From Buttiauxella agrestis (lineage in GTDB: Bacteria > Pseudomonadota > Gammaproteobacteria > Enterobacterales > Enterobacteriaceae), in contig NZ_UIGI01000001.1 in assembly GCF_900446255.1 (NCBI RefSeq), positions 832,763 to 896,762 on the forward strand: a stretch of DNA of 64,000 nucleotides. The letters run 5' to 3'. Each line of letters opens with the position of its first letter. Position 1 is the first letter of the stretch. The notes beneath the pieces are model-generated. The model saw only the letters and a program-made list of their open reading frames with translations, was not told the origin of the DNA and searched no databases. Positions 11,188-64,000 of this stretch are shown piece after piece. The position numbers were made by a program, and so were the translations under genes.

Positions 11188-11249
11188 GACATTGATCCTC
11201 TATAGTCACGCAATCAGGTACAGCGCCCTGTACAATATCGAGATGGAGT

Positions 11250-11303: not shown

Positions 11304-11370
11304 GATTCAACTCCTCTGAACATCACCCTCGTCGATTAACCATTCTGATTTGTATTCTTCACATCTAAAA

Positions 11371-12345: not shown

Positions 12346-12392
12346 GCTTTTCCTACCCTTCGATAATTCAAAATAAACGGTGATGTCCCATG

Positions 12393-13313: not shown

Positions 13314-13330
13314 GCATTACCTCCGGTATT

Positions 13331-13343
13331 TGTTTACTAAACA
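13331..13343. promoter_or_regulatory. Candidate operator, 13-bp palindrome, kinase side
   Basis: TGTTTACTAAACA is perfectly palindromic around its central C. It sits 18 bases upstream of the ROK kinase start. An identical copy lies at 13444-13456. Binding by the adjacent LacI-type repressor is inferred. Confidence 0.6.
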
Positions 13344-13443
13344 GTGATTTTGCTCGTTATCCTAGGCTAAAAATTCGCCATTAAAACTGTAATGTTCACC
13401 AATGGTGACTGCAATCACATAAACAGAATAACTAAAAATGATG

Positions 13444-13456
13444 TGTTTACTAAACA
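13444..13456. promoter_or_regulatory. Candidate operator, 13-bp palindrome, GH1-PTS side
   Basis: This is the second exact copy of TGTTTACTAAACA, 113 bp from the first and 96 bases before the GH1 start. The two copies bracket the divergent promoter region, an arrangement compatible with repression loops. Confidence 0.6.
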
Positions 13457-13551
13457 AAATTAAAGACCATATGATTGAAATGGTTAACGGGGTTTGACCA
13501 AAAAAAGTGCATTTATCGAATTTATAAGCAACTGAATAACAGGGAAGCCGC

Positions 13552-25753: not shown

Positions 25754-25791
25754 AAAAAAAGCCGCAACGTTATCCGTTGCGGCTTTTTTTT
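25754..25791. terminator. Strong bidirectional intrinsic terminator
   Basis: GCCGCAACG (25761-25769) pairs with CGTTGCGGC (25775-25783) around TTATC, with seven A before and nine T after. It serves the regulator on the plus strand and the lapEBC genes on the minus strand. Confidence 0.92.
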
Positions 25792-29342: not shown

Positions 29343-29363
29343 TTAGGCGTTATGTCGGTGTTT

Positions 29364-29432
29364 GTAGGGTGGATAAGCGAAGCGTCATCCACCAAATAAT
29401 GTCGGATGGCGCTGCGCTTATCCGACCTACGG
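29364..29432. repeat. Pair of inverted REP-like elements between lapE and lapB
   Basis: GTAGGGTGGATAAGCGAAGC at 29364 continues to CCACC, followed by an inverted, diverged copy whose complement begins CGTAGGTCGGATAAGCGCAG. Each half is a palindromic enterobacterial REP-type unit. A related pair occurs at 44751-44822. Confidence 0.8.
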
Positions 29433-29450
29433 AAATATATTCCTTAAACA

Positions 29451-46784: not shown

Positions 46785-47483
46785 CTATTCATCAATCGGG
46801 AATCCTTCTTCCCGCATTTTTTTCAACACATCCTGCCATCGAGAAAGACGCTTACTATCCCCGACACGTTTATTATTCTGACTTCCTGGTAACCACAACC
46901 CGCTATCATTAAAGGAATAAACAGGCAATAAATCCGAGCGCTGTGTTGCAGGTAAAATGTTATCCGTCAGACTATCAAGAACGATGGGAATAGCCTCCGG
47001 TGACGAGTACCAGGTTAATACCATATGCGCCCGATTCAGACGTAATGCTTTAACGTAGGTAATACGTAACTTTTCTCCTGAAACACCTAAGTGACGTAAT
47101 GTGAAATATTTAGCGAGCGCATAATCTTCGCAATCTGCTTCGCCTTTGCGCAGTGATTCTACGGGCGTTGCCCAATAATCAGTGCTATTCCAGATTTCAA
47201 TATCTTCACGGTAATGCAATTGCTGGTTAAAAAAACGATTCACCGCATTTAATTGTGCGAGTTCAGTTTGGCTCCGTTGGTTCAATAACAGTTGCTGCCA
47301 GGCATTTATACGCAGCTCACCTTCCTTCGTTGCCGGGCCATAGAGTTGGTCGGCACGTTGTTGAATGGTCGTGAAATCCCAGGCTGCACGTAAAGAGCCT
47401 CCCGCCAATAGTAACAACAGCACACCAGAAAAAATCAGAGGCGCTAATAACCTGGTGCGAAAAAATAACCTGACTGAGTTCAA
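46785..47483 (-). CDS. lapG: LapG-like periplasmic cysteine protease
   Basis: This 232-residue transglutaminase-like cysteine peptidase (BTLCP family) has an N-terminal signal or anchor (LLAPLIFSGVLLLLLAGGSL). The catalytic triad is C118 in EADCEDYALAKYF, H153 in NRAHMVLTWY and D170 in IVLDSLTDN. The acidic residues around the cysteine match the calcium-binding site of LapG. It should cut the adhesin at its TAAG motif when released by LapD, freeing the cell from the surface. It lies upstream of lapD and 29 bases downstream of a solute-binding protein gene on the same strand. Confidence 0.92.
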   Translation of the reverse strand: MNSVRLFFRTRLLAPLIFSGVLLLLLAGGSLRAAWDFTTIQQRADQLYGPATKEGELRINAWQQLLLNQRSQTELAQLNAVNRFFNQQLHYREDIEIWNSTDYWATPVESLRKGEADCEDYALAKYFTLRHLGVSGEKLRITYVKALRLNRAHMVLTWYSSPEAIPIVLDSLTDNILPATQRSDLLPVYSFNDSGLWLPGSQNNKRVGDSKRLSRWQDVLKKMREEGFPIDE

Positions 47484-48385: not shown

Positions 48386-49289
48386 AGAGTGTTGTAGATG
48401 TTGTGAGTTTTTTAAGTTCCGCCGACATTGGAATATTTAGATTAATAGCGTTCGGTGGAATAGGAGACTGGAACCATCGTTGGTACAGTTTCTGAAAATC
48501 TTTGCCGGTAATAAGTGTTTTGAGCGTGTTATCGAGAAAATTTTTGAATTCACTGTCATCAAGCGGCAGCAACAAGCCTGCGGGAATCGGTGGGCTTAAC
48601 GTCTGATCGGAAATTTCAAACTCATCAGGCGTCGGAGACATCGCGATCATACCTTTCAGTATCGCCGTACTTGAAATCAAAGCCGGTAACTCACCGCTTT
48701 GAAGTTCCTGGAATGCACCTTTGTTATTGTTATCAAGCTCAATATTTAAATTGAGATCGTTCGTTTTATTGATGGTGTGGATTTGCTCGACATAAATAGT
48801 GCCGCTTTTAACCAGGACACTGTGCCCGGCTAAGTCGTCAATGGTATCGGTATGGTTATTTTTGCGAGTAATGAAACGCGTGCTGGAGAAGAAAAATGGG
48901 AACGAGAATTCGGCTTTTTGATGACGCAATTCAGAATAAAAAGCAGGGATGCACATGATATCAGTCGCATGATTTTTAATGAGCACGAACTGTGACGCGG
49001 TGCTGCTTTTTATCCAGCGAACTTTAAGGTCTTTCAGCTTCAGTTTTACTTTGATTGCATCAACGAGTTTATTGCATATATCAATGGAGTAACCCGCCGG
49101 ACGCTGCCCCTCAATGTATGAAAAGGGAAATGCATCATCCTGATAACCCAGCGTAATTGTCTTTGTCTCGGCTATCTTATCCAGTGTGTTTTTACTGTGT
49201 ACGCCATGTGCGTGGCATACCGGACTACTGAGCAAAAATAGTGAGGCAATCAAGCCAGGTAAACAGGCAAATAATGACTTAGCAGACAT
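48375..49289 (-). CDS. Periplasmic solute-binding protein, amino-acid family (first copy)
   Basis: The 304-residue protein starts at ATG 49289 (MSAKSLFACL) with GGGGAAA about 8 bases upstream, inside the end of the preceding GGDEF-EAL gene. A longer frame reaches 49427 but lies wholly within that gene. A signal peptide ends near VCHA. The SBP_bac_3 pattern follows: TITLGYQDDAFPFSYIEG, GYSIDICNKLVDAIK, TDIMCIPAFYSELRHQ. It overlaps the upstream gene by 11 bases and the downstream binding protein also by 11, indicating tight translational coupling. The two binding proteins are clearly diverged from each other. Ligand is unknown. Confidence 0.85.
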   Translation of the reverse strand: MSAKSLFACLPGLIASLFLLSSPVCHAHGVHSKNTLDKIAETKTITLGYQDDAFPFSYIEGQRPAGYSIDICNKLVDAIKVKLKLKDLKVRWIKSSTASQFVLIKNHATDIMCIPAFYSELRHQKAEFSFPFFFSSTRFITRKNNHTDTIDDLAGHSVLVKSGTIYVEQIHTINKTNDLNLNIELDNNNKGAFQELQSGELPALISSTAILKGMIAMSPTPDEFEISDQTLSPPIPAGLLLPLDDSEFKNFLDNTLKTLITGKDFQKLYQRWFQSPIPPNAINLNIPMSAELKKLTTSTTLYAY

Positions 49290-51474
49290 CGCAGATTTCC
49301 CCGTCGATGACTTTATTGCCAAACGTCGGCTCCAGATCTTTCTCAGGTAATGGGCGGCTGTAATAGTAACCCTGTACATTCTGGCAAGAAATTCGGCGCA
49401 AAATAGTCCGCTGCTGCTCCGTCTCAACCCCTTCTGCCGTCACGCTCATGCCATATTTCTGGGCAAATTGAATCAGCATCACGACCAGGTACTGGCTCGC
49501 ACTTTCTTGCTCCAGTTTCATAATCAGGGTACGGGCGATTTTAATGCGGGTGAACGGATAAATAAGCAGGTAATCCAACGCCGCATATCCGGTTCCCAAA
49601 TCATCCATCGCAATAGAAATACCCATTTCACGAATTTTTCTGAATACCGGCAACGCAATAGACTGATCCAGTTTTTCTGATTCAGTGACTTCAATTTCGA
49701 GGCGGTTAGCCGCCAGGCCACTTTGTTTTAACGCATCAACAATAATGTCTATCAGGCCAGGGCCATGTAATTGATAGGCCGAAATATTCACCGCGACTTT
49801 GGTGGACTCAGGCCACTTCGCGGCAGCCATACAGGATTGTCGGATAATCCATTCGCCTAAACGAATAATCAGGCCGGATTCTTCCGCAATATTAATGAAG
49901 TAATCCGGGAATATCAGGCCCTTAGTAGGATGATTCCAACGGATAAGCGATTCATAACCGCAAACCGTTTCATTTTCCAGATTGATAATAGGCTGGTAGT
50001 GCAGCACGAACTCATTATTATCAATGCCGTTAATGATTTCCTGATTCACGAACACACTGTTGGTGTGCTTCATCATCATGCCGTCTTCAAAGAAGTGGTA
50101 GCAACCGCGCCCGCTATGTTTTGACGCGTACAATGCCAGGTCCGCATTGATCATCAGCGTCGTGGCGCTGTTGCCCTGAGAAGGGGCGGTGACAATACCC
50201 ACGCTACAACTGATGGCGAAAGAGTGGCTGCCGTAGGTAAACGGAATGCTCAAGGCGCGGACGATTTTTTGCGACAGTGCTCCAGCTTCCTGGCAATTGT
50301 CTTCCCGGACACTCTGCAAAATAGCAAATTCATCGCCGCCTAACCGCGCAGCAAAGTCCATTGGGCCGAGCAATAAGGACAGGCGCTGTGCGACACCGAT
50401 CAGCACTTCATCGCCCGCCGAGTGGCCGAAGGTGTCGTTGACCGGTTTAAAGTTATCAAGATCGATCAGCAACAAGTTGAAAGGCTGCCCATTTTGATTC
50501 ATTTCGCGAATGCATTTATCCAGTGCCTGACTAAAAGAAGCGCGGTTCGGGAAGCCGGTCAGCGAATCATGGTGAGCCATGTACTCCATTTTTTGCGACA
50601 TATCCTGCATTCTTTGCAGGTAATCGCGTTCAACCATCGCAATACGGAGTTTTTCAATCGCTGCTGCTAATCTGCCGATTTCGTCATCCTGATCTAAATA
50701 AGGGGTAATAAGGTCGGTTTGCTCGTGGGCAATGCGGGTCAGGGAGTTGATGAGCAACGGTACCGGGCGGAACAGGCGGCGCATAAACAGCGTCACCAGA
50801 GCCAGCGTACCTAACAAAATTAGCGCCAGAATGATCAGTGTTTTCTTCAGCATCGCGTCATAGGCGGCATAGAGCTGTTTTTTATTGCCGATGCTGCTGA
50901 CTAAACTACCCAGAATTTCGCCTGATGGAGTCAGAATAGGCACGGCGCTGATAAAGCAATCCTGGCCGTTAATCGAGGCAAAACCAATGTAGTAATTCCC
51001 CAGGACGTCAGTGGCTCTTTGTCCTTTGAAGCTGATTTTTTCTTCTGTTGATTCTGAATTATTGCTGATGCCCTGGAAGTCTTTTTCTGGCGTATAAAGG
51101 AAAAGCCACGTCGGGTTACGGGTTTGCACCGCGGCCAGAGCTAATACATCGACAGGGTTATAACCGGTTTGAATCACTGAGTCCGGGTCGCCGATTTTAT
51201 GCTCCGAAACAATACGCGTGATTTGGCCGGTCGAACTGGTTCCCACCGCGACGTTGGTATAAACATTGCGGACGATGTACGTAATTATTTGCGCATTCGC
51301 TTCAGCCTGATGTACCCACTGTTGGTACGAAAAGCTATCAATCAGACCCCAACCCGCACAGGCACCTGCCCCGAAAGCAATAAGGATTCCCGCCAGCAAA
51401 AACTGGGTTATTTTCCCGGCGATAGAATGGTGCCAACCTTTTACGCTTTTAAGCGAGAAAAAACTTTTAGCCAC
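49279..51474 (-). CDS. Membrane GGDEF-EAL sensor heading the solute-binding/lapGD operon
   Basis: The 731-residue protein has two membrane spans (about 21-43 and 214-232) enclosing a periplasmic sensor domain of some 170 residues, and then a HAMP domain. A GGDEF domain follows with intact ARLGGDEF (about 378), and an EAL domain with ESLIRW (about 509), AVNIS, EVTES, DDLGTG, IKIART, EGVETE and NVQGYYY. Serine replaces alanine in EAL, and IKIA replaces IKID. Both activities look possible, so the net direction cannot be read. Its coupling to two binding proteins resembles Vibrio MbaA-NspS, where a binding protein docks on the periplasmic domain. Confidence 0.9.
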   Translation of the reverse strand: MAKSFFSLKSVKGWHHSIAGKITQFLLAGILIAFGAGACAGWGLIDSFSYQQWVHQAEANAQIITYIVRNVYTNVAVGTSSTGQITRIVSEHKIGDPDSVIQTGYNPVDVLALAAVQTRNPTWLFLYTPEKDFQGISNNSESTEEKISFKGQRATDVLGNYYIGFASINGQDCFISAVPILTPSGEILGSLVSSIGNKKQLYAAYDAMLKKTLIILALILLGTLALVTLFMRRLFRPVPLLINSLTRIAHEQTDLITPYLDQDDEIGRLAAAIEKLRIAMVERDYLQRMQDMSQKMEYMAHHDSLTGFPNRASFSQALDKCIREMNQNGQPFNLLLIDLDNFKPVNDTFGHSAGDEVLIGVAQRLSLLLGPMDFAARLGGDEFAILQSVREDNCQEAGALSQKIVRALSIPFTYGSHSFAISCSVGIVTAPSQGNSATTLMINADLALYASKHSGRGCYHFFEDGMMMKHTNSVFVNQEIINGIDNNEFVLHYQPIINLENETVCGYESLIRWNHPTKGLIFPDYFINIAEESGLIIRLGEWIIRQSCMAAAKWPESTKVAVNISAYQLHGPGLIDIIVDALKQSGLAANRLEIEVTESEKLDQSIALPVFRKIREMGISIAMDDLGTGYAALDYLLIYPFTRIKIARTLIMKLEQESASQYLVVMLIQFAQKYGMSVTAEGVETEQQRTILRRISCQNVQGYYYSRPLPEKDLEPTFGNKVIDGEICDVC

Positions 51475-52228: not shown

Positions 52229-54421
52229 TTGGACTCTACAGCCAGCAACAGCACAGCGTATACCAATAAACGGTGGGTTTTCCCGCTGGTTCTCCCGTTC
52301 CTGCTTTACTCACTGGCCCAATTGCTCAGCAGCCACCTTATTGTCGATGGACGGGTGCTGGTGGTTTATGACCTGGAACTGGCGGCTATCTCTGCGGTAT
52401 TGGTGCTGTTTGGTTACAGAGCCGTACCCGGCCTGATGCTTCTCTCTGTATTTTCCCTGCTGTTCCGTACTTCAACCGAAACCTTCGAGCTGCTTGGCTA
52501 CCTGATTGCCGCATTCATCAGTTACTTCTTCTACGCCCGGTATACAGGCTGGCGCAGTGCATCAAGTTTTGGGCGCATCACGCTCACGACCCAGCGAATT
52601 ATCTGGCTCTGTCTGTGCAATGCGGTGATCAATACGCTTTCAAGTGAAGTGATTTGCCTGCTGACTACGCCGCATACGGGTTCAGGAATGGTTTGCGATC
52701 ACATTTTTAACGCGGAAACCCTGGTCAGAATCCAGGGGGTGATGAATGGCTGCATCACGGGCATTCCTCTGTTCTACACCGCGTTAAGGATTATCTGCCG
52801 CCCGAAATACGCCGCAGTCTGCCTGAAGTCAGTTTTGGCCCAGCTATCAGAAAACGTCGGTTACACTCGCTTTTCCGCATGGGCGATATCGCTCCTCATC
52901 CTGATGGTTTGTCTGAATATTCCCTTCAAAGACAATATCTTCTTCACGTTCTACAGCCTGGTACTGATATTCCCGCTGATGCTGTGGAGCTCGGTGCGCA
53001 TTGGTTATATTTTCACGGCTCCGGTCTGGACTGTGATGATGATTGTGCTGGCGAAGAATAATGTGAATTACATCGCAGTCAATGACGACTTTATGTTGCA
53101 TCAGGTGCTGGTCTCGACGGTTATTTTTATCTTCACGCTCACCATCGTGATCATGGGCGTGCTTGCCCGTTTCAACACCCTGCGCATTGAGCAATTGCTG
53201 AATATGGGTCTGACGGACCCGATGACCAATATGCCCAATTTGCGGGCATTGAAAGCGGATATTCAGGCTTCTCCAGACTCCACGGTGTGCCTGATTCAGG
53301 TGCCGGAAATGGAGCTTTTTTCGCGTCGCTATGGGCTGCACTTTCGCGCCAGATACCAGAAAAAACTGGCCGAGCATCTGCGCCTTAAGCTCAATGTTGA
53401 TGAGAAAGTCTATTACCACGCGGGCTATGGGCTGCTGCTCAAGCTGGAGCAACCTAGCTGGGGAAGACTGAGCATTCTGTACAAATCGGCGAATACCTTT
53501 CGCTATTCTCATAACAATCAGCAGCTCGGGTTTCGCAGTGGTCTGGGATATTGCCGGGCCACGCAGTTCTGTAACGATGTCTACAGCCTGACCGGGAAAC
53601 TGGGCATTGTTTCCGGGCTTTCGCTGGTCAACGGCAAACCGGAAAACCTAGAGGCGCAGTCCAGCCGTATTCATGAAAACTATATCGTTGGGCGCACTGA
53701 TATTCGTACCGTATTGCAGAAAACGCTGGATAACGACGCGTTTGTATTAATGGCGCAGCCGATCGTCAGCACCTGTGGCGAGCCGCGCTACCACGAAATT
53801 CTGCTGCGTATGTTAGATGAAGAAGGTCGGTTTATTCCGCCGGATCGTTTCTTACCGGTGGCAACCGAAGCGGGGCTTGCGCCTGATATCGACTTATGGG
53901 TGATCAGAAATACGCTGAAAACCATGCAGTTGCATCCGGAACACTGTTTTTCTATCAATCTGGCCCCGGTTACTGTGTGTCGCGCCAGTTTCGTTCATCA
54001 CGTTCAGTTACTGCTGACGGAGTTCGACGTCGATCCGCATCGCATTATCTTTGAAATCACAGAAGCGGATGCGCTGTCAGATACCGAGCAGTCACAAAAT
54101 ACGGTGCGCTCGCTCAAAAGCCTGGGTTGCCGTGTGGCGATTGATGACTTCGGCACAGGCTTTTCGAGCCATGCTCGCCTGATGGATGTCAGCGCCGATA
54201 TTCTGAAAATAGACGGCTCGTTTATTCGTGAAATTACCGATAACGAAGTCAGTCATTACATTGTTGAGTCATTTTGCCATGTTGCAAAAATGAAAAATAT
54301 GCAGGTTGTCGCTGAATATGTTGAGAATGAAAAAATTCAACGCTGCCTGGAAAATATGAATGTTGACTGGCTTCAGGGATATCACATTGGTAAGCCAGTG
54401 CCGTTGCTGACGTTGATATAA
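52229..54421 (+). CDS. Second PdeF/YfgF-like membrane phosphodiesterase
   Basis: The 730-residue protein shares the layout of the protein at 16694-18919. It has an N-terminal multi-span membrane domain (WVFPLVLPFLLYSLAQLL), a degenerate GGDEF-like domain (DPMTNMPNLRALKAD, no GGDEF) and an intact-looking EAL domain with EILLR (about 522), NLAPV, EITEAD, DDFGTG (about 638), LKIDGSF, VENE and QGYHIG. It should degrade c-di-GMP. The start is TTG 52229, with an ACGGG stretch upstream. It lies 66 bases before the chemoreceptor gene, which makes it a likely member of the Wsp-like operon opposing the diguanylate cyclase at its end. Confidence 0.87.
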   Translation: MDSTASNSTAYTNKRWVFPLVLPFLLYSLAQLLSSHLIVDGRVLVVYDLELAAISAVLVLFGYRAVPGLMLLSVFSLLFRTSTETFELLGYLIAAFISYFFYARYTGWRSASSFGRITLTTQRIIWLCLCNAVINTLSSEVICLLTTPHTGSGMVCDHIFNAETLVRIQGVMNGCITGIPLFYTALRIICRPKYAAVCLKSVLAQLSENVGYTRFSAWAISLLILMVCLNIPFKDNIFFTFYSLVLIFPLMLWSSVRIGYIFTAPVWTVMMIVLAKNNVNYIAVNDDFMLHQVLVSTVIFIFTLTIVIMGVLARFNTLRIEQLLNMGLTDPMTNMPNLRALKADIQASPDSTVCLIQVPEMELFSRRYGLHFRARYQKKLAEHLRLKLNVDEKVYYHAGYGLLLKLEQPSWGRLSILYKSANTFRYSHNNQQLGFRSGLGYCRATQFCNDVYSLTGKLGIVSGLSLVNGKPENLEAQSSRIHENYIVGRTDIRTVLQKTLDNDAFVLMAQPIVSTCGEPRYHEILLRMLDEEGRFIPPDRFLPVATEAGLAPDIDLWVIRNTLKTMQLHPEHCFSINLAPVTVCRASFVHHVQLLLTEFDVDPHRIIFEITEADALSDTEQSQNTVRSLKSLGCRVAIDDFGTGFSSHARLMDVSADILKIDGSFIREITDNEVSHYIVESFCHVAKMKNMQVVAEYVENEKIQRCLENMNVDWLQGYHIGKPVPLLTLI

Positions 54422-54486
54422 CGACACGCATAAATAAATTCATTAATTAAGCATTCATTTCACATTATTTAGATAACTGGATACCC

Positions 54487-56586
54487 ATGCGTAAATTTTT
54501 AACAATACAGCGCCCCTCAGATGTGGAAGAAACCAAGGGCAGCGAAAATTTTCTGACATCCTGGCTGCATAAATTACATGTGGGGGTGGCGATGAAGCTA
54601 GGGCTGATGCTGGTTGCCTGCATCGCCGTGCTGCTGATTGGCGCATCTTTCCTGTTGTCATCTTATTTAGCTAAACAGCTACAGGATAACGCCCTGGAAG
54701 TTTTGCGTTCAAATACGCGTATCTTCCATAACAATATCATTACTGAATATAAACGAGTTACCCGAGACGCTGAACGTTACAGCAACGTTTATATTAATAA
54801 CTACCAGAATATGTCTCCGGTGCCGCTGCGTTCATTAGGGACTGAAGAGCTAAAAGCCTTATTAAGCGATACACGTATTAATGCGCATTTCACCGAATTA
54901 ACCAGCGTATTTGCCTCGACCTTTATTCGTGAAGGCGAGCAATTTGTTCGTGTCTCCACCACTCTCCAGGGCAAAGAAGGCAAAATAGCGACATCCACCG
55001 TTCTGAGCCATGACAACCCGGCGTTAGCGGGGCTGATTAAAAATAAACCTTATTCAGGTGTGGTGACGATATATGGCAAACAATTCATCAGCCACTACGA
55101 ACCTATTACCGATAAATTCGGCCAGGTGGTGGGTGCCGTCGCGATTGGATTTGACGTTAAACTGGCGCTGCAGCCGGTGATTAAAGAGCTGTTAGCGGTT
55201 CATATTGGCGAAGGCGGCTACGCATACGTGCTGGATGCGGGGTTCAGCCCCGGCATGATGGTGGCGCACCCAACCCTGGCTAACCAGCATGTAGAAAACA
55301 TTACCGACGCCCATGGCTACAAGCGTTATGCCGATATTATGGCGCTTAAAAATGGCACGGTTTATTACGAAACCGTGAGCGGTTACGGCGCGGCGCCGCG
55401 CAAACGTGTTGCGGTATTTGAATATATCGATGGCATTAACTGGATTATTTCCACCACCAGTTATGTCGATGATGTTGCCCGCAGCAGCAATCTGGTGCGT
55501 AACAGTCTGCTGATGTTCAGCGTGCTGTTAATGCCGGTGATTTTGATTTTGATTGCCGCCACCAGCCGTATTCTGATTTCACGCCGTTTAAATAAAGTGC
55601 TGCGAATTTCGCAATCTATTGCCCAGGGCGACCTGACGGTGAATGTGCAGGTTGATCACAACGATGAGATCGGTGATTTGCTCAGTGCGAACGAAAAGAT
55701 GCGTCAGTCGTTGCACGCGTTAGTGGGGGGAGTGGTTTCACATGCCCGCCGCGTTCATGAAGCGGCTTTAAATATCACCGAAGCGGTAGATGGCCAGGCC
55801 TCGACCAGCGTGGAAACTTCATCTTCAGTGGCAGAAATCACCTCGACGATGGAAGAACTTTCGGCCTCCTCAACGCAAATTGCCGAGCATTCTCGTGCGG
55901 TGGTGGATATCGCCAATGTCACGCTTGATGACTGCAACAAAGGCTCTGATTCGATGGGCGAACTGCTCACTCGTATGGCCGACATCGACAGTGACAACCA
56001 GCAAAGCATGCGTGAAATCATGATGTTGGGTAACAAGTCCAAAGAGATCAGCCGCGTGATGATTATCATCAATAACGTTGCGGACCAAACCAAACTCATC
56101 GCGTTTAACGCAGCCCTTGAAGCGGCAAGTGCGGGTGAATCGGGTAAACGTTTCTCTGTGGTCGCCGCAGAAATCCGTCGCCTGGCGGACTCCGTAACGG
56201 AATCGACTTTCGAGATTGAGAACAAAATCAGCGAAATTCAGAACTCGATTAACCGCCTGGTGCTCAACGCCGAGAAAGGCAGTAACAGCATTAAAGCGGG
56301 TACTAAAGCCTGCAAAGTCAGCGCCGATCGTCTGCATGATATCGTTGCGACCGCCGAGCAAACTTCTACCGCCGCCATGCAGATTTCACTCTCTACGCAG
56401 CAGCAGAAAACGGCAAGCAATCAGGTGGTTATGGCGCTGCGTGAGATCGTGGTGGCCAGTAATTACACCTCGCAATCGATTAAAGACATTCTGTCTATCA
56501 GCCAGGATATGACTCAACTTTCCAATGAGCTAAATCAGGCCTCACAGTCTTTCAAACTGACGGATGGCTCTGATGTGCAGGCCTAA
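54487..56586 (+). CDS. Methyl-accepting chemotaxis protein (Wsp-like receptor)
   Basis: The 699-residue receptor has a first membrane span at about 40-61 (LGLMLVACIAVLLIGASFLLS). A large periplasmic Cache-type sensor (about 65-335) contains GGYAYVLDAGFSPGMMVAHP. The second span is at about 340-360, followed by HAMP (SIAQGDLTVNV, DEIGDLL) and a signalling hairpin with VADQTKLIAFNAALEAASAGE. The tip has K where most receptors have N after QT. No CheR-binding pentapeptide ends the protein (it ends DGSDVQA). It is the sensory input of the cluster; ligand unknown. The next gene overlaps its end. Confidence 0.9.
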   Translation: MRKFLTIQRPSDVEETKGSENFLTSWLHKLHVGVAMKLGLMLVACIAVLLIGASFLLSSYLAKQLQDNALEVLRSNTRIFHNNIITEYKRVTRDAERYSNVYINNYQNMSPVPLRSLGTEELKALLSDTRINAHFTELTSVFASTFIREGEQFVRVSTTLQGKEGKIATSTVLSHDNPALAGLIKNKPYSGVVTIYGKQFISHYEPITDKFGQVVGAVAIGFDVKLALQPVIKELLAVHIGEGGYAYVLDAGFSPGMMVAHPTLANQHVENITDAHGYKRYADIMALKNGTVYYETVSGYGAAPRKRVAVFEYIDGINWIISTTSYVDDVARSSNLVRNSLLMFSVLLMPVILILIAATSRILISRRLNKVLRISQSIAQGDLTVNVQVDHNDEIGDLLSANEKMRQSLHALVGGVVSHARRVHEAALNITEAVDGQASTSVETSSSVAEITSTMEELSASSTQIAEHSRAVVDIANVTLDDCNKGSDSMGELLTRMADIDSDNQQSMREIMMLGNKSKEISRVMIIINNVADQTKLIAFNAALEAASAGESGKRFSVVAAEIRRLADSVTESTFEIENKISEIQNSINRLVLNAEKGSNSIKAGTKACKVSADRLHDIVATAEQTSTAAMQISLSTQQQKTASNQVVMALREIVVASNYTSQSIKDILSISQDMTQLSNELNQASQSFKLTDGSDVQA

Positions 56587-57640
56587 AATCCGCGTGCTGA
56601 TCGTCGATCATGGCGGCTCGTCGCGCAATGATTTGATTCGACAGCTTGAGATTAATAAAAGCATCGAAGTGGTGGGGCAATCCGTTCATCGCGAACAAGC
56701 GGCGAGCCTGGTGCAAAAGATGGCTCCGCAGCTTCTGGTGCTGACATTAGGCGCGCCGGGTCGTGAAAACGTCGAAACAGTGGAAACGATTATGGCGACC
56801 TGCGCCATTCCGATCATGGTGATGCGTTACTACGCCGATGCGCAGTGGGATGCGGAATTTATCACCCGCGGCGCGTTGGCGGTGGTCTGCAACCCTGGCG
56901 AGTCGGTGCAGGCGACGAAAGCGTTACATCGTCAGGTGGAAATGCTGGTGGGAGTGAAGGTGATTCGCCACATTCAGGGGCTACGGCATCATGCAGACGG
57001 GGCGGCGAAAACCGCGCCGATCCCTGAAATCGCTCAACCCGAGCACCACGAATGGCCGTTTGTGCTGGCGATTGCCTGTTCCACGGGCGGCCCGCAGGCA
57101 CTGAGCAAATTGTTACAGGCGCTACCGGGCATTTTCCCATGCCCGATAATTATCGCGCAGCATATTGCCGACGGTTTCGCGACCAGCATGGTGCAATGGC
57201 TGGATGGCATCACCGAGCTGCAGGTGCAACTGGCGCAAGTGAATGACGTTTTAACCGCAGGGCGGGTCTACATTCTGCCGCCTGAACAGCATCTGGTGGT
57301 GAAAAAAAACCATCGTTTAGCGGCTGTCGCACGCCAGGCCAGCGATGTGTATCACCCAAGCTGCAACCTGCTGCTGGAGTCCGTGGCTGAGGTTTATCGT
57401 GAAAAAGCGGTCGGTCTCATTATGACGGGCATGGGCAGTGATGGTTGCCGGGGAATCGAAGCGATTTTCCAGAAGGGCGGTAAAACGCTGGCTCAGGATG
57501 AGGTGACGTCGGTGGTGTTTGGTATGAATAAATTCGCCATTGATAAGAACGTGATCCACAAAATTTTACCGCTGGAGCAGCTCGCCGCGACGTTACTGGC
57601 GATGGCCCATCCCCGGCATTTTGAAGGGAAACGCTTATGA
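56564..57640 (+). CDS. CheB-type methylesterase with a degenerate receiver domain
   Basis: The 358-residue protein has an N-terminal receiver-like domain and a C-terminal CheB methylesterase domain. The catalytic serine is in ACSTGGPQALSKLL (about 173), the histidine in IIAQHIADGFATSM (about 199) and the aspartate in MTGMGSDGCRG (about 292). The receiver lacks the phospho-acceptor: where CheB proteins read TLDVEMP this one reads VLTLGAPG. The conserved lysine is replaced (VVCNPGE), and only one residue of the acidic pair remains (IVDHGG). It probably demethylates the receptor without phosphorylation control. ATG 56564 or 56573 may start it; both overlap the receptor gene. Confidence 0.9.
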   Translation: MALMCRPKIRVLIVDHGGSSRNDLIRQLEINKSIEVVGQSVHREQAASLVQKMAPQLLVLTLGAPGRENVETVETIMATCAIPIMVMRYYADAQWDAEFITRGALAVVCNPGESVQATKALHRQVEMLVGVKVIRHIQGLRHHADGAAKTAPIPEIAQPEHHEWPFVLAIACSTGGPQALSKLLQALPGIFPCPIIIAQHIADGFATSMVQWLDGITELQVQLAQVNDVLTAGRVYILPPEQHLVVKKNHRLAAVARQASDVYHPSCNLLLESVAEVYREKAVGLIMTGMGSDGCRGIEAIFQKGGKTLAQDEVTSVVFGMNKFAIDKNVIHKILPLEQLAATLLAMAHPRHFEGKRL

Positions 57641-59064
57641 TCCCCAATATTGCAGCCTTTAAAGATCTTATTAAAGACCGTGTCGGCCTGCATTTTTACA
57701 ACGGCATGGAAGGGTTGCTGAATGCCGCTTTGCATCAGCGTATCTCCGAGCGGGGAAAAGAAAGTAGCGCTGAATATTACGAGAAACTTTGCGTCTCGAG
57801 CGTCGAATTCGACAAGCTGTTAAGCCTGCTCACTATCAATGAAACTTACTTTTTCCGCGAGCCGGAAGTGTTGGATATCGTCTGTGAAAAGCTGGTGCCG
57901 CGCATGCTTGAGCAGAAGGGCGGCCCGATACGCATTCTGAGTGCAGGCTGTTCATCTGGCGAAGAAGCCTACTCGTTGGCAATAAAGCTCCACCAGAAAT
58001 ATCACGATAAATTTGCCCGAAGCGTGGAAATTCACGGCTGCGATATCGACGTTAAAATTCTGGAGAAAGCCCGCGCGGCGAGTTATTCCAGCTACTCGTT
58101 TCGCGGCGTTGACCCGCTATTGCAGCAAACGTATTTCACGCGCCACGGGAATCAATTTCAGTTACACGATGTGATCCGCGAAAAAGTGACGTTCCATCGC
58201 TCGAATATTGTCAAAGAACAACTCCAACCCCAATTCGACATTATTTTGCTGCGCAACGTCTCCATTTACTTTGATGTCGAAACGCGGCGACTGCTGCATT
58301 TTAATTTGCTGAACATTCTGCAACCCGATGGCGCGCTGTTCTTTGGGAATGCGGAAACGCTCGCCAATAATTTTGGCATCTTAAAACTCAAACAAGAGAG
58401 CGGGCATTTCTATTTCTGCCAGCCGAAAACATCGCGCCTCCAGCCTCCGGCGGCAAGCGTTGCACCCAGGATTATCACGCCGGTGATTCCGGCCCAGGCC
58501 CCTTTTGTGGCCGCATCGGTTCCCTCTGTGCAGCAGTGCGATAGCTGGATTAAAAAGGCGCTTGCGTGTGTGGCTGACAAACGTTTTATCGAAGCCGAAG
58601 AGTGGATTAGCCAGGTGCTCGATAGCGATATTGATAACCAGGAAGCGTTGGTGATTAAAGGCGCGATTGCGCTGGAAAAATGCGAGTTCGAACAAACCGC
58701 GCTCAGTGCGCAGCATGTCCTCGAACTTGATGAGTGGTCAGCGGAAGCGAAAATGCTGCTGGGGTTGGCCATGATGTGGCAGCACCACACACAACAGGCG
58801 ATTGCCTGGTTTAAACAGGTGGTTTATCAACAGCCTGGGTATTGGCCCGCGCATTACTACCTGGCGGAAATGTATCGGCAAAGTGAATTGCATCGCCCGG
58901 CGCAGCGAACCTACCGCATCACTCTGCAATTACTCAACGCGGAAATGAACAATACGACGGCCAACGCCAGTTCGTTGCGGCTGCCCTTGTCGTTCCCGAG
59001 TAATTCGTTTCGTTTTCTTTGTGAACATCAGTTGGCGCAGTTCACCAGTCAGGATGGGATTTAG
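57637..59064 (+). CDS. CheR-type methyltransferase with C-terminal TPR region (WspC-like)
   Basis: The 475-residue protein methylates receptor glutamates using S-adenosylmethionine. The N-terminal CheR domain has INETYFFREPEVLD, the SAM-binding motif LSAGCSSGEEAYSLA (about 101-115), HGCDIDVKILEKAR, and ILLRNVSIYFDVETR in place of the common RNVLIYF. After a proline/alanine linker (about 270-295), residues 300-430 form TPR-like helices (ALVIKGAIALEKCEFEQTALSA, MLLGLAMMWQHHTQQAIAWF). A CheR-TPR fusion is characteristic of WspC. The start overlaps the cheB stop (ATGA). Confidence 0.9.
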   Translation: MIPNIAAFKDLIKDRVGLHFYNGMEGLLNAALHQRISERGKESSAEYYEKLCVSSVEFDKLLSLLTINETYFFREPEVLDIVCEKLVPRMLEQKGGPIRILSAGCSSGEEAYSLAIKLHQKYHDKFARSVEIHGCDIDVKILEKARAASYSSYSFRGVDPLLQQTYFTRHGNQFQLHDVIREKVTFHRSNIVKEQLQPQFDIILLRNVSIYFDVETRRLLHFNLLNILQPDGALFFGNAETLANNFGILKLKQESGHFYFCQPKTSRLQPPAASVAPRIITPVIPAQAPFVAASVPSVQQCDSWIKKALACVADKRFIEAEEWISQVLDSDIDNQEALVIKGAIALEKCEFEQTALSAQHVLELDEWSAEAKMLLGLAMMWQHHTQQAIAWFKQVVYQQPGYWPAHYYLAEMYRQSELHRPAQRTYRITLQLLNAEMNNTTANASSLRLPLSFPSNSFRFLCEHQLAQFTSQDGI

Positions 59065-59072
59065 AGAACCGT

Positions 59073-61208
59073 ATGGCAATCGATCTTAAAAAATTTGTGC
59101 TGCGCTTTATCGATGAAGCAAACGGCCATTTGCAGACCGTGAAAGAAGGGGCGTTTTCGCTCTCATCGGGTGAAAACGTTGATGCACAAATCGGTGAGAT
59201 GTTCCGTGCAGCCCATACCCTGAAAGGGGGCGCGCGTATGCTGAAACTGCAAAGCATCGCCGATGTTACCCATCAGCTTGAAGAGATCTTAAGCGAGCTG
59301 CGCGATAAGAAACTCGAACCCGACCAAAACCTCGGCACGCTGATTTTGCAGGCTACGGATGACATCTCCAGGCAACTCGACCAGTTGACCGCCAGCGAAG
59401 GCACTAACAACTTGCCCCCGGCAGACGCACAATTATGCGAGCGTCTGGCGCGTGCCAGCCGTGGCGAAATGGGCGACGAACCGGTGCAGGTAAAAGTCGT
59501 ACCGGCGGAAAAACCCATTGTGGCGCTCGATATCGCAGAAAGCGGACTCAAACAAGCCGGTTCGGTGCGCGTCAAACTCGAAAAGCTCGATGACCTGATT
59601 AATATTCTCGGCGAAGTGGTTGCCAGCCATGACCGCCTGGAGCAGCAGGTTCAAAGCCTGTCGAACATTGGGCCGCGCCTGGCCCATATGGATGCTGACC
59701 AACTCCGCCAGGAAATCCTGCAATTTAGCCGCCAGCTAAAAGAAGATTTCCAGGTTCAGCATCTCCAGATGTACGAACTGTATGACGTCGCCACCACGAT
59801 TCGCATGCTTCCGGTTTCCATGCTGTTCGAGCCTGTTTCACAGCAGGTGCGTGAACTTGCGGCTTCGCTCAATAAGCAGGTGGACTGCCGGATTCTGGGC
59901 GGCGAAGTGGAAATTGACCGGCAGTTAATCGACCGACTTTCTGAGCCGTTAACGCATCTGCTGCGCAACGCAGTCGATCACGGGCTTTGCGAAGCGCCAG
60001 AGCGACTGGCTGCCGGGAAATCGGCGCGCGGCACTATCACATTGACCACACAGCAAGACGGACGCGGCATTTTGTTGCGCGTCGAAGATGACGGTCGCGG
60101 CCTGGATTACCCGGCGATTCGTGCCAAGGCGGTTGCTCGCGGCCTGGTGAGCGCCGATGTGGTTGACCAGCTTTCAGAGCTGGAATGTAACGAGCTGATT
60201 TTCCACCCCGGTTTTTCGACCAGCAAAATTGTCACGGAGCTTTCGGGACGCGGCGTAGGGCTGGATATCGTTCGCAAAACTATTGTCACCGATTTGCAAG
60301 GCACGCTTCAGGTTCACAGCCGCCCAGGCCAGGGCACCACCTTTGTTATCAGGCTGCCGATTTCACTGGCGATGATGCGTATTTTGCAGTTTGAGCAGCA
60401 AAACCACCTGTTTGGTCTTGCGGCGCAATATGTGGTCGAAGTGGTGAAATGTTCTCGCGAAGAGATTCGCGATATTGCTGACCGTCCGGCCATCATTCTG
60501 CATAACGAGTTTATTCCGGTGATTTCCGCCGCCGAGATACTGCGTATTAATGACCGACACGGCAGCCAGACCCCTACGCCCGTGGCGACCAGTTTGCTGC
60601 TGATCATTATTCAGAATCAGTTCGGCAAGATGGCGATGCTGGTGGATAACCTGCTCGACGAACGCAACATGATGATAAAACCCCTGCCGAAACATATGCA
60701 GCACCAGGCTCTGGTCTCCGGCATGGTGCTCACCGCGGATAACCAACTGGTGAGCGTTTTGCAGGTACCGGTGCTGATGGAAATGGCGCAAAAGCAGGGG
60801 CAGCCACGAACGGCCGCGCATAAGCCGGAGGTTCGACAAAACTCCTGGCATGTGTTGATCGTTGATGATTCCCTGAACACCCGTGAAATTGAGAAAAACG
60901 TGCTGGAAGCGCACGGTTATCAAGTCACGCTCGCTGAAGATGGATTCTCAGGTTTACAAAAAGCGCGCTTAACGCAATTTGACGCCGTTCTGACGGATGT
61001 CGAAATGCCAGTAATGGATGGATTCTCACTGACTAAAGCACTTCGCGCTGAAGAAAATTATCAACATATTCCGATAATTATCGTCACCTCCAGGGCAAAA
61101 GAAGAAGACCGCCGCCGGGGCATTCAGGTCGGCGCGGATGCTTACATCGCCAAGGGTGATTTTGAGCAAGATAGTCTTATAGAAACATTAAAGATGCTGT
61201 TGTGCTGA
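59073..61208 (+). CDS. CheA-type hybrid histidine kinase with C-terminal receiver (WspE-like)
   Basis: The 711-residue kinase has an N-terminal Hpt domain with phospho-histidine H48 (FRAAHTLKGGARML), and a dimerisation segment near KLDDLINILGEVVASHDRLEQQV. The ATPase domain has LLRNAVDHGL, VEDDGRGLD and GRGVGLDIVRK. A CheW-like domain (about 430-580) and a C-terminal receiver follow, the receiver with IVDDSLNT, the acceptor aspartate in LTDVEMPVMDG (about 642) and VTSRAKEEDR. This order matches WspE. The receiver may act as a phosphate sink or as the relay step to the Hpt domain of the downstream output protein. It starts 8 bases after the cheR stop. Confidence 0.92.
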   Translation: MAIDLKKFVLRFIDEANGHLQTVKEGAFSLSSGENVDAQIGEMFRAAHTLKGGARMLKLQSIADVTHQLEEILSELRDKKLEPDQNLGTLILQATDDISRQLDQLTASEGTNNLPPADAQLCERLARASRGEMGDEPVQVKVVPAEKPIVALDIAESGLKQAGSVRVKLEKLDDLINILGEVVASHDRLEQQVQSLSNIGPRLAHMDADQLRQEILQFSRQLKEDFQVQHLQMYELYDVATTIRMLPVSMLFEPVSQQVRELAASLNKQVDCRILGGEVEIDRQLIDRLSEPLTHLLRNAVDHGLCEAPERLAAGKSARGTITLTTQQDGRGILLRVEDDGRGLDYPAIRAKAVARGLVSADVVDQLSELECNELIFHPGFSTSKIVTELSGRGVGLDIVRKTIVTDLQGTLQVHSRPGQGTTFVIRLPISLAMMRILQFEQQNHLFGLAAQYVVEVVKCSREEIRDIADRPAIILHNEFIPVISAAEILRINDRHGSQTPTPVATSLLLIIIQNQFGKMAMLVDNLLDERNMMIKPLPKHMQHQALVSGMVLTADNQLVSVLQVPVLMEMAQKQGQPRTAAHKPEVRQNSWHVLIVDDSLNTREIEKNVLEAHGYQVTLAEDGFSGLQKARLTQFDAVLTDVEMPVMDGFSLTKALRAEENYQHIPIIIVTSRAKEEDRRRGIQVGADAYIAKGDFEQDSLIETLKMLLC

Positions 61209-61228
61209 CGGCGCTAAGTGAGAAAAAA

Positions 61229-61591
61229 ATGCGTGTTTTATTAGTAGATGACGATTTGTTTTCGGCTGAGTTGGCTTCGGTATTTCTGGAAATGAGCGGT
61301 TATGAAGTGATTATTGCCGAAAGTGCGATGACGGCATTAGCCCATCTGGACTCAGACAGCGAAATCGGTCTGGTCATTAGCGACTTCCATATGCCGGACA
61401 TTACCGGCCTGGACTTGTTAGAGATGCTGCGTGCCAACGGCTGGAAAAAACCGTTTATTTTACTCAGCGCCAGCGAGATGACCGACATTACTATCATCCC
61501 TGATTGCTGGGTGAAGAAAGACGAGAATATGGCAGAAAGATTAGTGGCCGTAGTGAATGAAATCCTCAACCCAGACGTAGCTGCTCAATAA
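61229..61591 (+). CDS. Stand-alone response-regulator receiver domain
   Basis: The 120-residue receiver has LLVDDDLFSA, the acceptor aspartate D52 in VISDFHMPDITG, LLSASEMTD and a lysine in WVKKDEN. ATG 61229 gives the usual MRVLLVDDD start with GTGAG upstream; a GTG at 61202 would overlap the kinase gene and add nine residues. It has no output domain, so it could be a CheY-like interactor or a phosphate sink. It sits between the kinase and the Hpt-REC-REC-GGDEF protein. Confidence 0.87.
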   Translation: MRVLLVDDDLFSAELASVFLEMSGYEVIIAESAMTALAHLDSDSEIGLVISDFHMPDITGLDLLEMLRANGWKKPFILLSASEMTDITIIPDCWVKKDENMAERLVAVVNEILNPDVAAQ

Positions 61592-61602
61592 ATTAAAAAA
61601 TC

Positions 61603-63291
61603 ATGATGAATCAACAATTGACGCAAAATACGATGAACACCGCGCAGGATAAAATCGCTCGTCTACGCCAGCGATTTTTGCAGCGCATTCCCGAAATGCT
61701 GAAACAAGCGGACGCTCTGCTGGCGAAGTTGACGGCTGCACCTTTGGATGCGGACAATAAACAATTACACCTTTTACTGCACAGCATCCACGGCACCAGC
61801 GCTTCGTTTGGCTTCACCAAAATAGCCAGTCTGGCGGCGGAAGGTGAGCATATGTTGGTGAGCAATACGCTTCCCGACTCGCTTTATCAGAAGCTAAAAG
61901 AGTTAGTTCAGCAGCTCTATGCCTTAACCGAAGAGCAGGCGGAAAGCGCGCGGCGCGGCGGGGATTCACTCGTGAAATTCCCGATAGCCGCTTCAAGCCA
62001 GGAAGAAGTGGCGATTAATCGCACCATTAAGCCGGTTTACCTGTGTGATGATGAAAGCGAGCAGGCCGAGCTGCTGGCGACGCAACTGCGCTGCTTTGGC
62101 TTTATTTGTTATGTGTTTACCAATACCGCTGATTTCACCAAGGCCGTTATCTCGCAGCCGCCTTCTGTGGTGATTATGGATGTGAGTTTCCCGGAACACG
62201 CCTACGGCGGCCCGCTGGCGATGTCTGATTTGAAAAAGAAAGTCGGCACACCGTTCCCGGTGCTTTATCTTTCCTGCCACAGCCATTTCCATGCCCGTAT
62301 TAATGCCATTAAAGCCGGGTGCGACGGCTATTATGTTAAGCCCGCTTCCACCACCGACTTAGTCCAGGAACTGCATCGATTAACGCAGCCTTCGCTGAAA
62401 AAACCGTATCAGGTTTTGTTGATTGATGACGAGCCGGAAGTCGCGCAATACAACGCTGAAATGCTGCGCATGGCAGGCATGGAAGTGCATGTTCTGACAC
62501 AAGTTCCTCATTTGCTGAACGTGCTGAACACCCATCCGATTGATATCGTGCTGATGGATTTCCACATGCCGGATTACAGCGGCGAAGAGTTGACGAAACT
62601 TATCCGTCAAATCCCGCAGCATATCGGTTTGCCGATTGCGTATTTGTCGAGCGAAACCAATAAAACGACTCAGTTCGGGGCGATGAGCACCGGCGCTGAA
62701 GATTTTATAATCAAGCAGGCCGACCCGCAGGAGCTGATTAATGCGGTGTCGATTCGTGCGGAAAGAATGCGTACCCTGCGGGCGCGTATGTCGCAGGACA
62801 GCCTGACCGGGTTGTATAACCACTCGACCACCACGCACTATCTGGAAAGCGCCATTACCGAGTCCAACTACAGCGGTATTCCCTTTAGCCTGGTGATGGT
62901 CGATTTGGATCACTTCAAAAATATCAATGACACCTACGGCCACGTGGCGGGCGATCAGGTAATTTTGGGGATTTCGCAGCTGTTTTCTCATCGCTTACGC
63001 AGCACCGATATTGTCGGGCGTTACGGCGGGGAAGAGTTCGCGATAATTATGCCTGCGACCACCAAAGAACAAGCGGCGGCAGTTGTTGAAAGACTGCGTC
63101 AGGGCTTTGAAAAAATTCACTTCTCGGTGAACCAGACCCGCTTTAGCAATACCTTCAGCGCAGGCATTGCCTCCTGGCAGCCGGGCGACAAAATCGAAAG
63201 TATCCGTGAGCGTGCCGACCAGGCTCTGTATAGCGCGAAGCAGCATGGCCGCAATCGCTATTGCCTCGCCGATGATAAGGACGTCGCATGA
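61603..63291 (+). CDS. Hpt-REC-REC-GGDEF diguanylate cyclase, output of the Wsp-like system
   Basis: The 562-residue protein has an N-terminal Hpt domain with H63 (HSIHGTSASFG) and a first receiver (LCDDESEQ, aspartate in VIMDVSFPEH near 192, YYVKPAS). A second receiver follows (LIDDEPEV, aspartate in VLMDFHMPDYSG near 318), and then a GGDEF domain with DLDHFKNINDTYGHVAGD and GRYGGEEF (about 475). An RSTD inhibitory site lies exactly five residues before GGEEF, so product inhibition is expected. WspR has a single receiver and no Hpt, so this is an extended output protein. CheW overlaps its stop (ATGA at 63288). Confidence 0.92.
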   Translation: MMNQQLTQNTMNTAQDKIARLRQRFLQRIPEMLKQADALLAKLTAAPLDADNKQLHLLLHSIHGTSASFGFTKIASLAAEGEHMLVSNTLPDSLYQKLKELVQQLYALTEEQAESARRGGDSLVKFPIAASSQEEVAINRTIKPVYLCDDESEQAELLATQLRCFGFICYVFTNTADFTKAVISQPPSVVIMDVSFPEHAYGGPLAMSDLKKKVGTPFPVLYLSCHSHFHARINAIKAGCDGYYVKPASTTDLVQELHRLTQPSLKKPYQVLLIDDEPEVAQYNAEMLRMAGMEVHVLTQVPHLLNVLNTHPIDIVLMDFHMPDYSGEELTKLIRQIPQHIGLPIAYLSSETNKTTQFGAMSTGAEDFIIKQADPQELINAVSIRAERMRTLRARMSQDSLTGLYNHSTTTHYLESAITESNYSGIPFSLVMVDLDHFKNINDTYGHVAGDQVILGISQLFSHRLRSTDIVGRYGGEEFAIIMPATTKEQAAAVVERLRQGFEKIHFSVNQTRFSNTFSAGIASWQPGDKIESIRERADQALYSAKQHGRNRYCLADDKDVA

Positions 63292-63809
63292 GCGAGCAAC
63301 TGGAACATATTTTAAGTCACTATCAAGACGAAAACCGCGAAATCACCAACGTTGATGAACCGCAATGCAGCCTGGTGTTATTCAAACTGGCGGAGAAGAA
63401 ATTCGCGTTTTACGGCTCGCAAATCAAAGAGATTATGGCTGAACGCCCGGTTTCCTGGGTGCCGGGTTGCCCGCCTTCTCTGGAAGGGGTGATTAATTAC
63501 CGGGGGCGCGTTGAATCTGTGATTAATATTAATCAGCTGCTCGACACGCCTGCGACGGAGGCGGGTAAACGCACCATTCTGATTGGCCGTGGCCAGAAAA
63601 TGCAAAGCGGTATTCTGGTCGATAAGTTAATTGATGTGCTGGAGGTTGCCGAGAGCCAGATTCACCCGGCAGCGGACAACTTATCGGCCACTATGCAGAA
63701 AATCGTGGTCGGCATTGTGCCTGTCGGTTCCGAATATTTTGCGTTACTGGATCTGGATTTAGTCTTCGCACGTTACCTGGAAACCAGCGGCTATGACTCA
63801 AGGGCTTAG
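63288..63809 (+). CDS. CheW-type coupling protein
   Basis: The 173-residue adaptor links the receptor to the CheA-type kinase. It has the CheW core: LVLFKLAEKKFAFYGSQIKEI, VPGCPPSLEGVINYRGRVESVININQLL, GILVDKLIDVLEV and YFALLDLDLVF. About 25 extra residues precede the core. It overlaps the preceding cyclase gene by 4 bases and the following gene by 17, showing continued translational coupling. Confidence 0.9.
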   Translation: MSEQLEHILSHYQDENREITNVDEPQCSLVLFKLAEKKFAFYGSQIKEIMAERPVSWVPGCPPSLEGVINYRGRVESVININQLLDTPATEAGKRTILIGRGQKMQSGILVDKLIDVLEVAESQIHPAADNLSATMQKIVVGIVPVGSEYFALLDLDLVFARYLETSGYDSRA

Positions 63810-64000
63810 TCTTGCGGCGGTGCGCATCACGCTGGGAAACCAGCGCTTCTATATTCCTGCCACTCAGGTGCAGCGCTGTTCATTGGTTGTTTATGAAGCC
63901 GAAGATATTCCGCGCTTAAGCCAATGGTTAGGGTTGCCTGACGAACCTGAACAAGGGATGCATCTGCATCTGATTGTTCCAGCAAGTAATGTGGAGCAGG
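63793..64000 (+). CDS. Probable second CheW-like protein, N-terminal part (cut by window edge)
   Basis: ATG 63793 opens a frame to the window end (69 codons) that overlaps the cheW stop. It starts MTQGLSLAAVRITLGNQRFYIPATQVQRC. The pattern, a short strand followed by a residue pair such as FYIP and a V-Q core, fits the beginning of a CheW-like domain. Wsp systems carry two CheW proteins (WspB and WspD), which supports this reading. The domain cannot be confirmed because the rest is outside the window. Confidence 0.6.
   Translation, partial: MTQGLSLAAVRITLGNQRFYIPATQVQRCSLVVYEAEDIPRLSQWLGLPDEPEQGMHLHLIVPASNVEQ

Follow-up and report, generated by a model that had tools for sequence, protein, structure and literature searches.

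A predicted c-di-GMP chemosensory operon beside Lap adhesion genes in Buttiauxella agrestis and its likely kinship with cluster 2 of Halomonas

We analysed a stretch of 64,000 nucleotides of the Buttiauxella agrestis genome (contig NZ_UIGI01000001.1, positions 832,763 to 896,762; hereafter the window), which ends in a tight run of nine chemosensory genes, all on the + strand, from position 52229 to the last letter. We establish here the gene content and order, the residues, the neighbourhood and the descent of this operon, which appears to be Wsp-like in logic without being Wsp, and which is best read as the enterobacterial version of the pathway encoded by chemosensory cluster 2 of Halomonas. 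The basic plan has been known from Halomonas since 2018. What is new in Buttiauxella and Citrobacter is a phosphodiesterase (PDE) gene at the head, the loss of the phosphorylation switch of CheB, and the adjacency of a Lap adhesion system. We propose, with a probability of about 0.6, that in this version a ligand-gated CheA phosphorelay drives a diguanylate cyclase, and that the resulting cyclic di-GMP (c-di-GMP), read by LapD, retains the adhesin LapA.

Gene content and order of the operon

The list of open reading frames and the Pfam searches recovered every gene that the initial annotation, made from the sequence alone, had described in this run, and the tight spacing it reported was borne out. 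The intergenic gaps are, in order, 65, -23, -4, 8, -7, 11, -4 and -14 nucleotides, with a maximum of 65 and five overlaps (the last value uses position 63796 as the start of the second CheW gene; the ATG at 63793 gives -17). The head gene (52229..54421), a predicted c-di-GMP PDE according to its Pfam EAL domain, hydrophobicity, alignment and synteny, is followed by a methyl-accepting chemotaxis protein (MCP; 54487..56586) with a Cache_3-Cache_2 sensor, a HAMP domain and a signalling hairpin (Pfam and alignment). Then come a CheB methylesterase, in which Pfam finds the esterase only and alignments reveal a degenerate receiver (56564..57640), and a CheR methyltransferase (57637..59064; 161.9 bits) with a C-terminal TPR region. 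CheA (59073..61208) combines Hpt, dimerisation, ATPase and CheW-like domains with a C-terminal receiver, as indicated by Pfam, the site table and the trees; it is followed by a CheY-like stand-alone receiver with an intact site (61202..61591; Pfam and site table) and by the output diguanylate cyclase, of Hpt-REC-REC-GGDEF architecture (61603..63291; Pfam and alignments). A CheW coupling protein (63288..63809; 82.3 bits) and an aberrant short CheW, similar to CheW3 of Halomonas titanicae (63793..64000, continuing beyond the window), complete the run. The principal Pfam domains all score above their cut-offs; CheR_N and the TPR of the CheR gene, the latter a weak match, fall below.

A comparison of gene order in other genomes, suggested by the initial annotation, found the complete order in 16/16 other enterobacterial loci, with CheA identities of 72-92%, and the order is thus beyond chance. 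In the nearest Buttiauxella genome the cyclase is 99% identical to that of the window. The residues on which phosphotransfer depends are also conserved. CheA, in which Pfam detects no P2 domain, retains H48, D642 and K694 in 17/17 enterobacterial rows; the cyclase retains its phosphosites, likewise intact in 17/17, together with GGEEF and the RxxD of the I-site; and the site of the lone receiver is intact in 16/17 (locus L098 has Lys changed to Gln). The second CheW gave no Pfam match, either for the window fragment or for the full copies of L094 and L102, and its probable identity follows from position, from alignment and from the published aberrant CheW3; that it is shortened was confirmed on the full copies of relatives, the window copy being cut by the end.

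The Lap neighbourhood and a proposed circuit

The Lap adhesion system that had been seen next door is real and conserved (12/12 Buttiauxella, 7/7 Citrobacter), and its adjacency is a new feature of the enterobacterial version. All its parts lie beside the operon: LapD (44835..46775, - strand; Pfam LapD_MoxY_N, HAMP, GGDEF and EAL), a C93 protease of LapG type (46785..47483, - strand; Peptidase_C93), type I secretion genes of LapC/LapB/LapE type (25790..30794, - strand; HlyD, ABC and OEP), and a giant LapA-type adhesin of 4368 residues (31196..44302, + strand), recognised from its open reading frame and from a TAAG motif at residue 103, which we take to be the LapG cleavage site. LapD lies on the operon's contig in 12/12 Buttiauxella, separated from the cyclase by 14.8-15.1 kb; in 7/7 Citrobacter it precedes the PDE by 5.3-5.5 kb, as computed from match positions (same-contig placement was checked for L102 and L105, the remaining loci being placed by their fitting coordinates). 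One Citrobacter locus, assembled from the overlapping pieces L206 and L207, shows the whole arrangement, with LapB/LapE, the adhesin, LapD, LapG, two solute-binding proteins, a GGDEF-EAL protein and the run from PDE to CheW2. What looks like a single circuit in enterobacteria, from cyclase and PDE through the c-di-GMP receptor to the protease and the adhesin, lies within about 40 kb.

These genes suggest the following sequence of events, in which established work on Che, WspR/PleD and Lap supplies the direction of the individual steps. The receptor, as its domains indicate, would control CheA autophosphorylation via CheW through its Cache_3-Cache_2 sensor, and CheA would pass phosphate to its own receiver, to the stand-alone receiver and to the receivers of the cyclase. 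There the Hpt domain would probably shuttle phosphate between receivers, and the GGDEF domain would be activated as in PleD and WspR, where REC-dependent dimerisation switches it on. CheR-TPR would methylate the receptor; CheB, judging from the residues it has lost, would no longer be raised by phosphorylation, so that CheA would not determine the rate of adaptation. The head EAL enzyme would remove c-di-GMP, setting threshold and decay. Finally, as the neighbourhood and the known Lap mechanism suggest, c-di-GMP sensed by LapD would stop LapG from cutting LapA, and cells would stay attached. The operon thus probably steers attachment rather than swimming and, given its gene neighbourhood, may control the adjacent adhesion genes.

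In a sample of 246 family genomes, 30 carry LapD, and all 4 with the operon are among them, which speaks for this circuit. Several points weigh against it. The other 26 LapD-bearing genomes are without the operon, and Lap therefore does not need it. The non-enterobacterial members, in the stretches that were fetched, gave no match to LapD, LapG or LapA, only to a generic ABC ATPase. The enterobacterial version occurs in two genera only, and its co-occurrence with Lap therefore does not amount to many independent events. Within the circuit itself, the activity of the PDE is a prediction read from its residues alone, its EAL motif reads EIL, and any order of phosphotransfer within the cyclase would be a guess. 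The first two points, together with the fact that WspR of Pseudomonas acts on several outputs, would fit an operon that sets a general c-di-GMP pool, for instance for cellulose, motility or another adhesin, with the Lap adjacency a matter of shared regional inheritance. We regard this as a serious competitor, albeit an unlikely one. It accounts poorly for the retention of the neighbourhood throughout the Buttiauxella and Citrobacter loci, and for the finding that LapD of the window is most similar to its counterparts in operon-bearing genomes (at least 74% identity, against at most 62% in the other 26).

The wider neighbourhood bears on the same question. Nine LapD loci from genomes without the operon (L197-L205) all have LapG beside LapD (9/9), but the two solute-binding proteins and the full GGDEF-EAL protein were found in 0/9 at E <= 1e-6, with an EAL-only match to the latter in L205. 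As the neighbours differ, the adjacency marks this Lap lineage and not Lap generally: compared with the Lap system as known, the one described here additionally has the chemosensory run, a GGDEF-EAL protein and two solute-binding proteins as neighbours. A GGDEF-EAL protein lies upstream of the operon in 16/16 other enterobacterial loci.

In the window, the interval 47513-51474, between LapG and the operon, holds two periplasmic SBP_bac_3 solute-binding proteins and a membrane GGDEF-EAL protein (49279..51474, - strand, divergent from the operon; Pfam). The pairing of solute-binding and GGDEF-EAL proteins resembles the NspS-MbaA arrangement of Vibrio cholerae.

Relationship to Halomonas cluster 2, Wsp and flagellar chemotaxis

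The initial annotation had taken Wsp of Pseudomonas as the proper comparison; order and parts are matched instead by the Halomonas cluster-2 family. Cluster 2 of Halomonas titanicae KHS3, published in 2018 (PMC5907407), comprises, according to the main text of that paper, an Hpt-REC-REC-GGDEF cyclase, a CheA without P2 but with a receiver, a CheR-TPR, a CheY-like protein and an aberrant second CheW, and the same text places such clusters in Oceanospirillales, Chromatiales, Enterobacteriales, Rhodocyclales, Rhodospirillales and Magnetococcales. A second paper, in the part concerned with CheR-TPR proteins, links them to pathways of alternative function, cyclase outputs among them (PMC3447774). 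The likeness to the window extends, on the description in PMC5907407, to the order MCP-CheB-CheR-TPR-CheA-REC-CheY-Hpt-REC-REC-GGDEF-CheW-aberrant CheW and to the missing P2 of CheA. The features of cluster-2 membership are accordingly found here: the gene order, the cyclase phosphosites and I-site, a P2-less CheA with its C-terminal receiver, the short CheW, and a CheR with a C-terminal TPR, weak in the window, to which other members have C-terminal matches. The window lacks the intact CheB receiver present in all 14 non-enterobacterial members with a CheB, a feature that is not a criterion in the text of PMC5907407. Compared with Halomonas cluster 2, the window thus has an EAL head, the loss of the CheB site and Lap alongside. 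Of three differences from Wsp that had been pointed out, only the EAL head stands as a peculiarity, the lone receiver and the Hpt plus two receivers being ordinary in Halomonas cluster 2; the odd second CheW-like gene is likewise standard in the cluster as published there.

Two trees of the CheA kinase core were built, the first from 42 of 50 cores and the second from 47 of 55, with L218-L222 added; Halomonas is represented by Halomonas sp. PA16-9 (L218), the CheA of H. titanicae KHS3 itself lying outside the tree. In both, the enterobacterial rows group together (100/100) within a cluster-2-like clade, which in the second tree has 25 rows, L218 among them, and a support of 100/99. The CheAs of two Wsp operons (L185 and L186, the only rows on the Wsp side) form a separate clade (100/100). 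Several branches are long, and the enterobacterial one, at 1.1 changes per column, leaves its placement within the clade unsettled by the tree. The outgroup was L187, from genome G001, which has two CheA-type matches; this is the genus's only other CheA and is flagellar by presumption. Holding the cluster-2 clade together with it was rejected (approximately unbiased (AU) test, p = 0.008 in the first tree and 0.005 in the second), so the position inside flagellar clades that had been named as fatal to a Wsp-like reading does not hold for CheA. A c-di-GMP pathway of Wsp-like type, as had been predicted, is supported.

That the operon is a true Wsp system with its genes rearranged is, in our view, very improbable. 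It does share with Wsp a CheA with a receiver and a GGDEF output, as in L185 and L186, and, as seen in L186, a CheR-TPR and an MCP hairpin N-arm of the same length (159 residues in both); there are two CheW genes; and the AU test did not reject the two CheA clades as sisters (p = 0.465). However, its CheA falls in another clade, though only two Wsp rows define that comparison, the gene order differs, and the output of L185 and L186 is a single-receiver REC-GGDEF protein. The extra receiver and the aberrant CheW are also unlike L186, where no lone receiver was found, and match Halomonas cluster 2, as do the order and the Hpt-REC-REC-GGDEF output. Wsp proper was therefore set aside, a sister relation being compatible with the tree. 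A second motility pathway of Buttiauxella, for which all the core Che components are present, is the least credible reading, as a tree joining its CheA to the genus's only other one, flagellar by presumption, was rejected (AU p = 0.005) and the output is a cyclase.

Distribution and copies elsewhere

The cyclase is present in 12/12 Buttiauxella genomes. At E <= 1e-150, CheA was found in 4/246 sampled Enterobacteriaceae (three Buttiauxella, one Citrobacter) and, at the level of the class, in 2/274 genomes (G001 and G651), with 6 passing 1e-90; within the genus Citrobacter 10/17 genomes carry it. The phylum sample gave 28/398 genomes passing 1e-110, 15 of these with at least 45% identity. The CheA of L218 is 46% identical over the full query; L219-L221 are three gammaproteobacterial copies from one genus, and L222 is from another proteobacterium. 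In all five (L218-L222) the order MCP, CheB, CheR, CheA, receiver, cyclase, CheW is preserved and the PDE is missing. Next comes an open frame of 134-208 residues, which overlaps CheW in some cases and resembles the short CheW in its C-terminal part (scored as CheW2 in L219 alone, weakly). Copies from metagenome-assembled genomes (L110-L118) mostly agree in order. The MCP was not found in L111 and CheW is absent after the cyclase in L113; the Nitrospirae copies L112 and L114 begin with CheW, carry the receiver downstream of the cyclase and yielded no short CheW; the sequence of L116 ends within the cyclase.

A few copies show irregularities. In L218 the cyclase (12623-14304) is split across two reading frames as deposited; in L053, the G651 copy, transposase-like sequence, judged by eye, stands between receiver and cyclase (10626-13133); and in L223 (7284-11724) CheA occupies two open frames and the GGDEF residues of the cyclase do not align, from decay or a sequencing fault. 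The first-receiver acidic pocket of the cyclase is changed in L112 and L114. The Lys of the lone receiver is aligned as Lys in 0/16 non-enterobacterial rows (L053, L110-L118, L218-L223), which may be a real change, perhaps with a different role, or an alignment fault.

The Hpt-REC-REC-GGDEF architecture alone does not mark the system. Hpt-REC-REC matches at E <= 1e-25 occur in 48/274 sampled genomes of the class, and 18 of 20 fetched loci have no che cluster nearby; L053 has the one described here and L066 a different one.

A CheB without its phosphorylation site

A change overlooked by the initial annotation affects CheB. In the window protein, alignment places His16 at a pocket acid, Thr61 at the phospho-acceptor Asp and Asn110 at the conserved Lys, while the esterase triad S173/H200/D293 is retained. 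Enterobacterial CheB in all 17 rows (17/17) shows the like: His or Leu stands in place of the second pocket acid, Thr in place of the phospho-acceptor (Ala in L098, where the first pocket acid is also changed, to Asn), and Asn, His, Tyr or Gln in place of the Lys. In contrast, D, D, D and K are intact in 14/14 non-enterobacterial proteins (CheB was found in 14 of 16 non-enterobacterial rows, the exceptions being L053 and L223), and the triad is kept in all 31 aligned rows. Loss of the phosphorylation site with the esterase retained is thus a second new feature of the enterobacterial version.

Compared with those of two Citrobacter, the CheB receiver of the window is 53-56% identical and the esterase 77-78%. 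Five pairs of homologues with an intact receiver give receiver and esterase identities of 69/78, 62/68, 88/87, 69/70 and 59/59%. As the two identities differ more in the enterobacterial proteins, the receiver looks less constrained there, and the esterase does not. CheB proteins without any receiver, such as those of Campylobacter and FrzG of Myxococcus, are a precedent for a methylesterase free of phosphorylation control; the enterobacterial CheB differs from them in still having the receiver region, minus the site, which relatives of the lineage retain. This natural loss offers a ready comparison with Halomonas on the purpose of adaptation feedback in pathways of attachment rather than swimming.

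The predicted head phosphodiesterase

The EAL enzyme that had been noticed at the head is real in 17/17 enterobacterial loci. A PDE of near-equal length lies directly 5' of the MCP in each; its N-terminal part is syntenic in 12/12 Buttiauxella genomes and the gene in 7/7 Citrobacter loci. No EAL match precedes the MCP in any of the 12 non-enterobacterial loci that extend 3.9 kb or more upstream of it (0/12; the other 4 of 16, L053, L111, L116 and L223, were not judgeable), and the word phosphodiesterase is absent from the main text of PMC5907407, figures apart. The head PDE is thus a third new feature, observed in every enterobacterial locus examined. We found no open-access description of the head PDE or of the CheB change, though few of our queries were aimed there and the subscription literature was largely uncovered.

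The protein, a membrane enzyme, has 7 hydrophobic stretches, a degenerate GGDEF-like region and the EAL domain (213.6 bits, residues 496-723), the sole Pfam domain found; the usual EAL catalytic residues, as commonly listed, seem present in the alignment. This layout is similar to that of PdeF of E. coli. Paralogues of 24-38% identity exist in Buttiauxella and other Enterobacteriaceae; one of them (L085) gave no E. coli match in a blastn search for an E. coli counterpart, nor did the CheA.

Put together, the altered CheB and the PDE raise the possibility, which we hold only tentatively, that enterobacteria have given up phosphorylation-controlled adaptation, with CheB running at a constant rate, and that the PDE, by acting on c-di-GMP itself, forms the negative arm of a dedicated controller of Lap adhesion with a feedback unlike that of Halomonas or Wsp.

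Sensor diversity and further observations

The Cache_3-Cache_2 domain of the window MCP (158.5 bits) was not seen in the seven other members compared. In Pfam searches the cluster-2-like copies L219-L221 have a weak dCache_1 below the cut-off, L113 and L222 dCache_3, L110 sCache_2/dCache_2, and L053 no recognised sensor. As the signalling part is alignable across all members included, it seems that one core has been combined with a variety of sensors. The membrane-near half of the window sensor weakly matches the structures 2qhk, 5g4y and 4exo (E 8e-7 to 3e-5) and the outer half, again weakly, 8py0 and 8py1; some of these structures bind small carboxylates, which for the ligand we treat as a lead only. 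The cluster-2 receptor of H. titanicae reportedly binds purines. In the Nitrospirae copies L112 and L114 the MCP has just 305-337 residues, too short for a periplasmic sensor.

Horizontal origin gave no clear signal in base composition (GC content of 0.47-0.56 in the operon genes, 0.49 in the window). Plasmid carriage was likewise set aside, as the 112 plasmid records that match CheA are all below 60% identity; a 1.8 Mb Halomonas replicon, at 46%, is the sole one of the 20 listed above 32%. Scans for promoters and terminators did no better than on shuffled sequence. Just 3' of CheW2, on the same strand, there was no match to a further GGDEF protein in L094 and L099; such a protein, of 336-359 residues, is present in the other 7/9 Buttiauxella loci (L095-L098, L100, L108 and L109).

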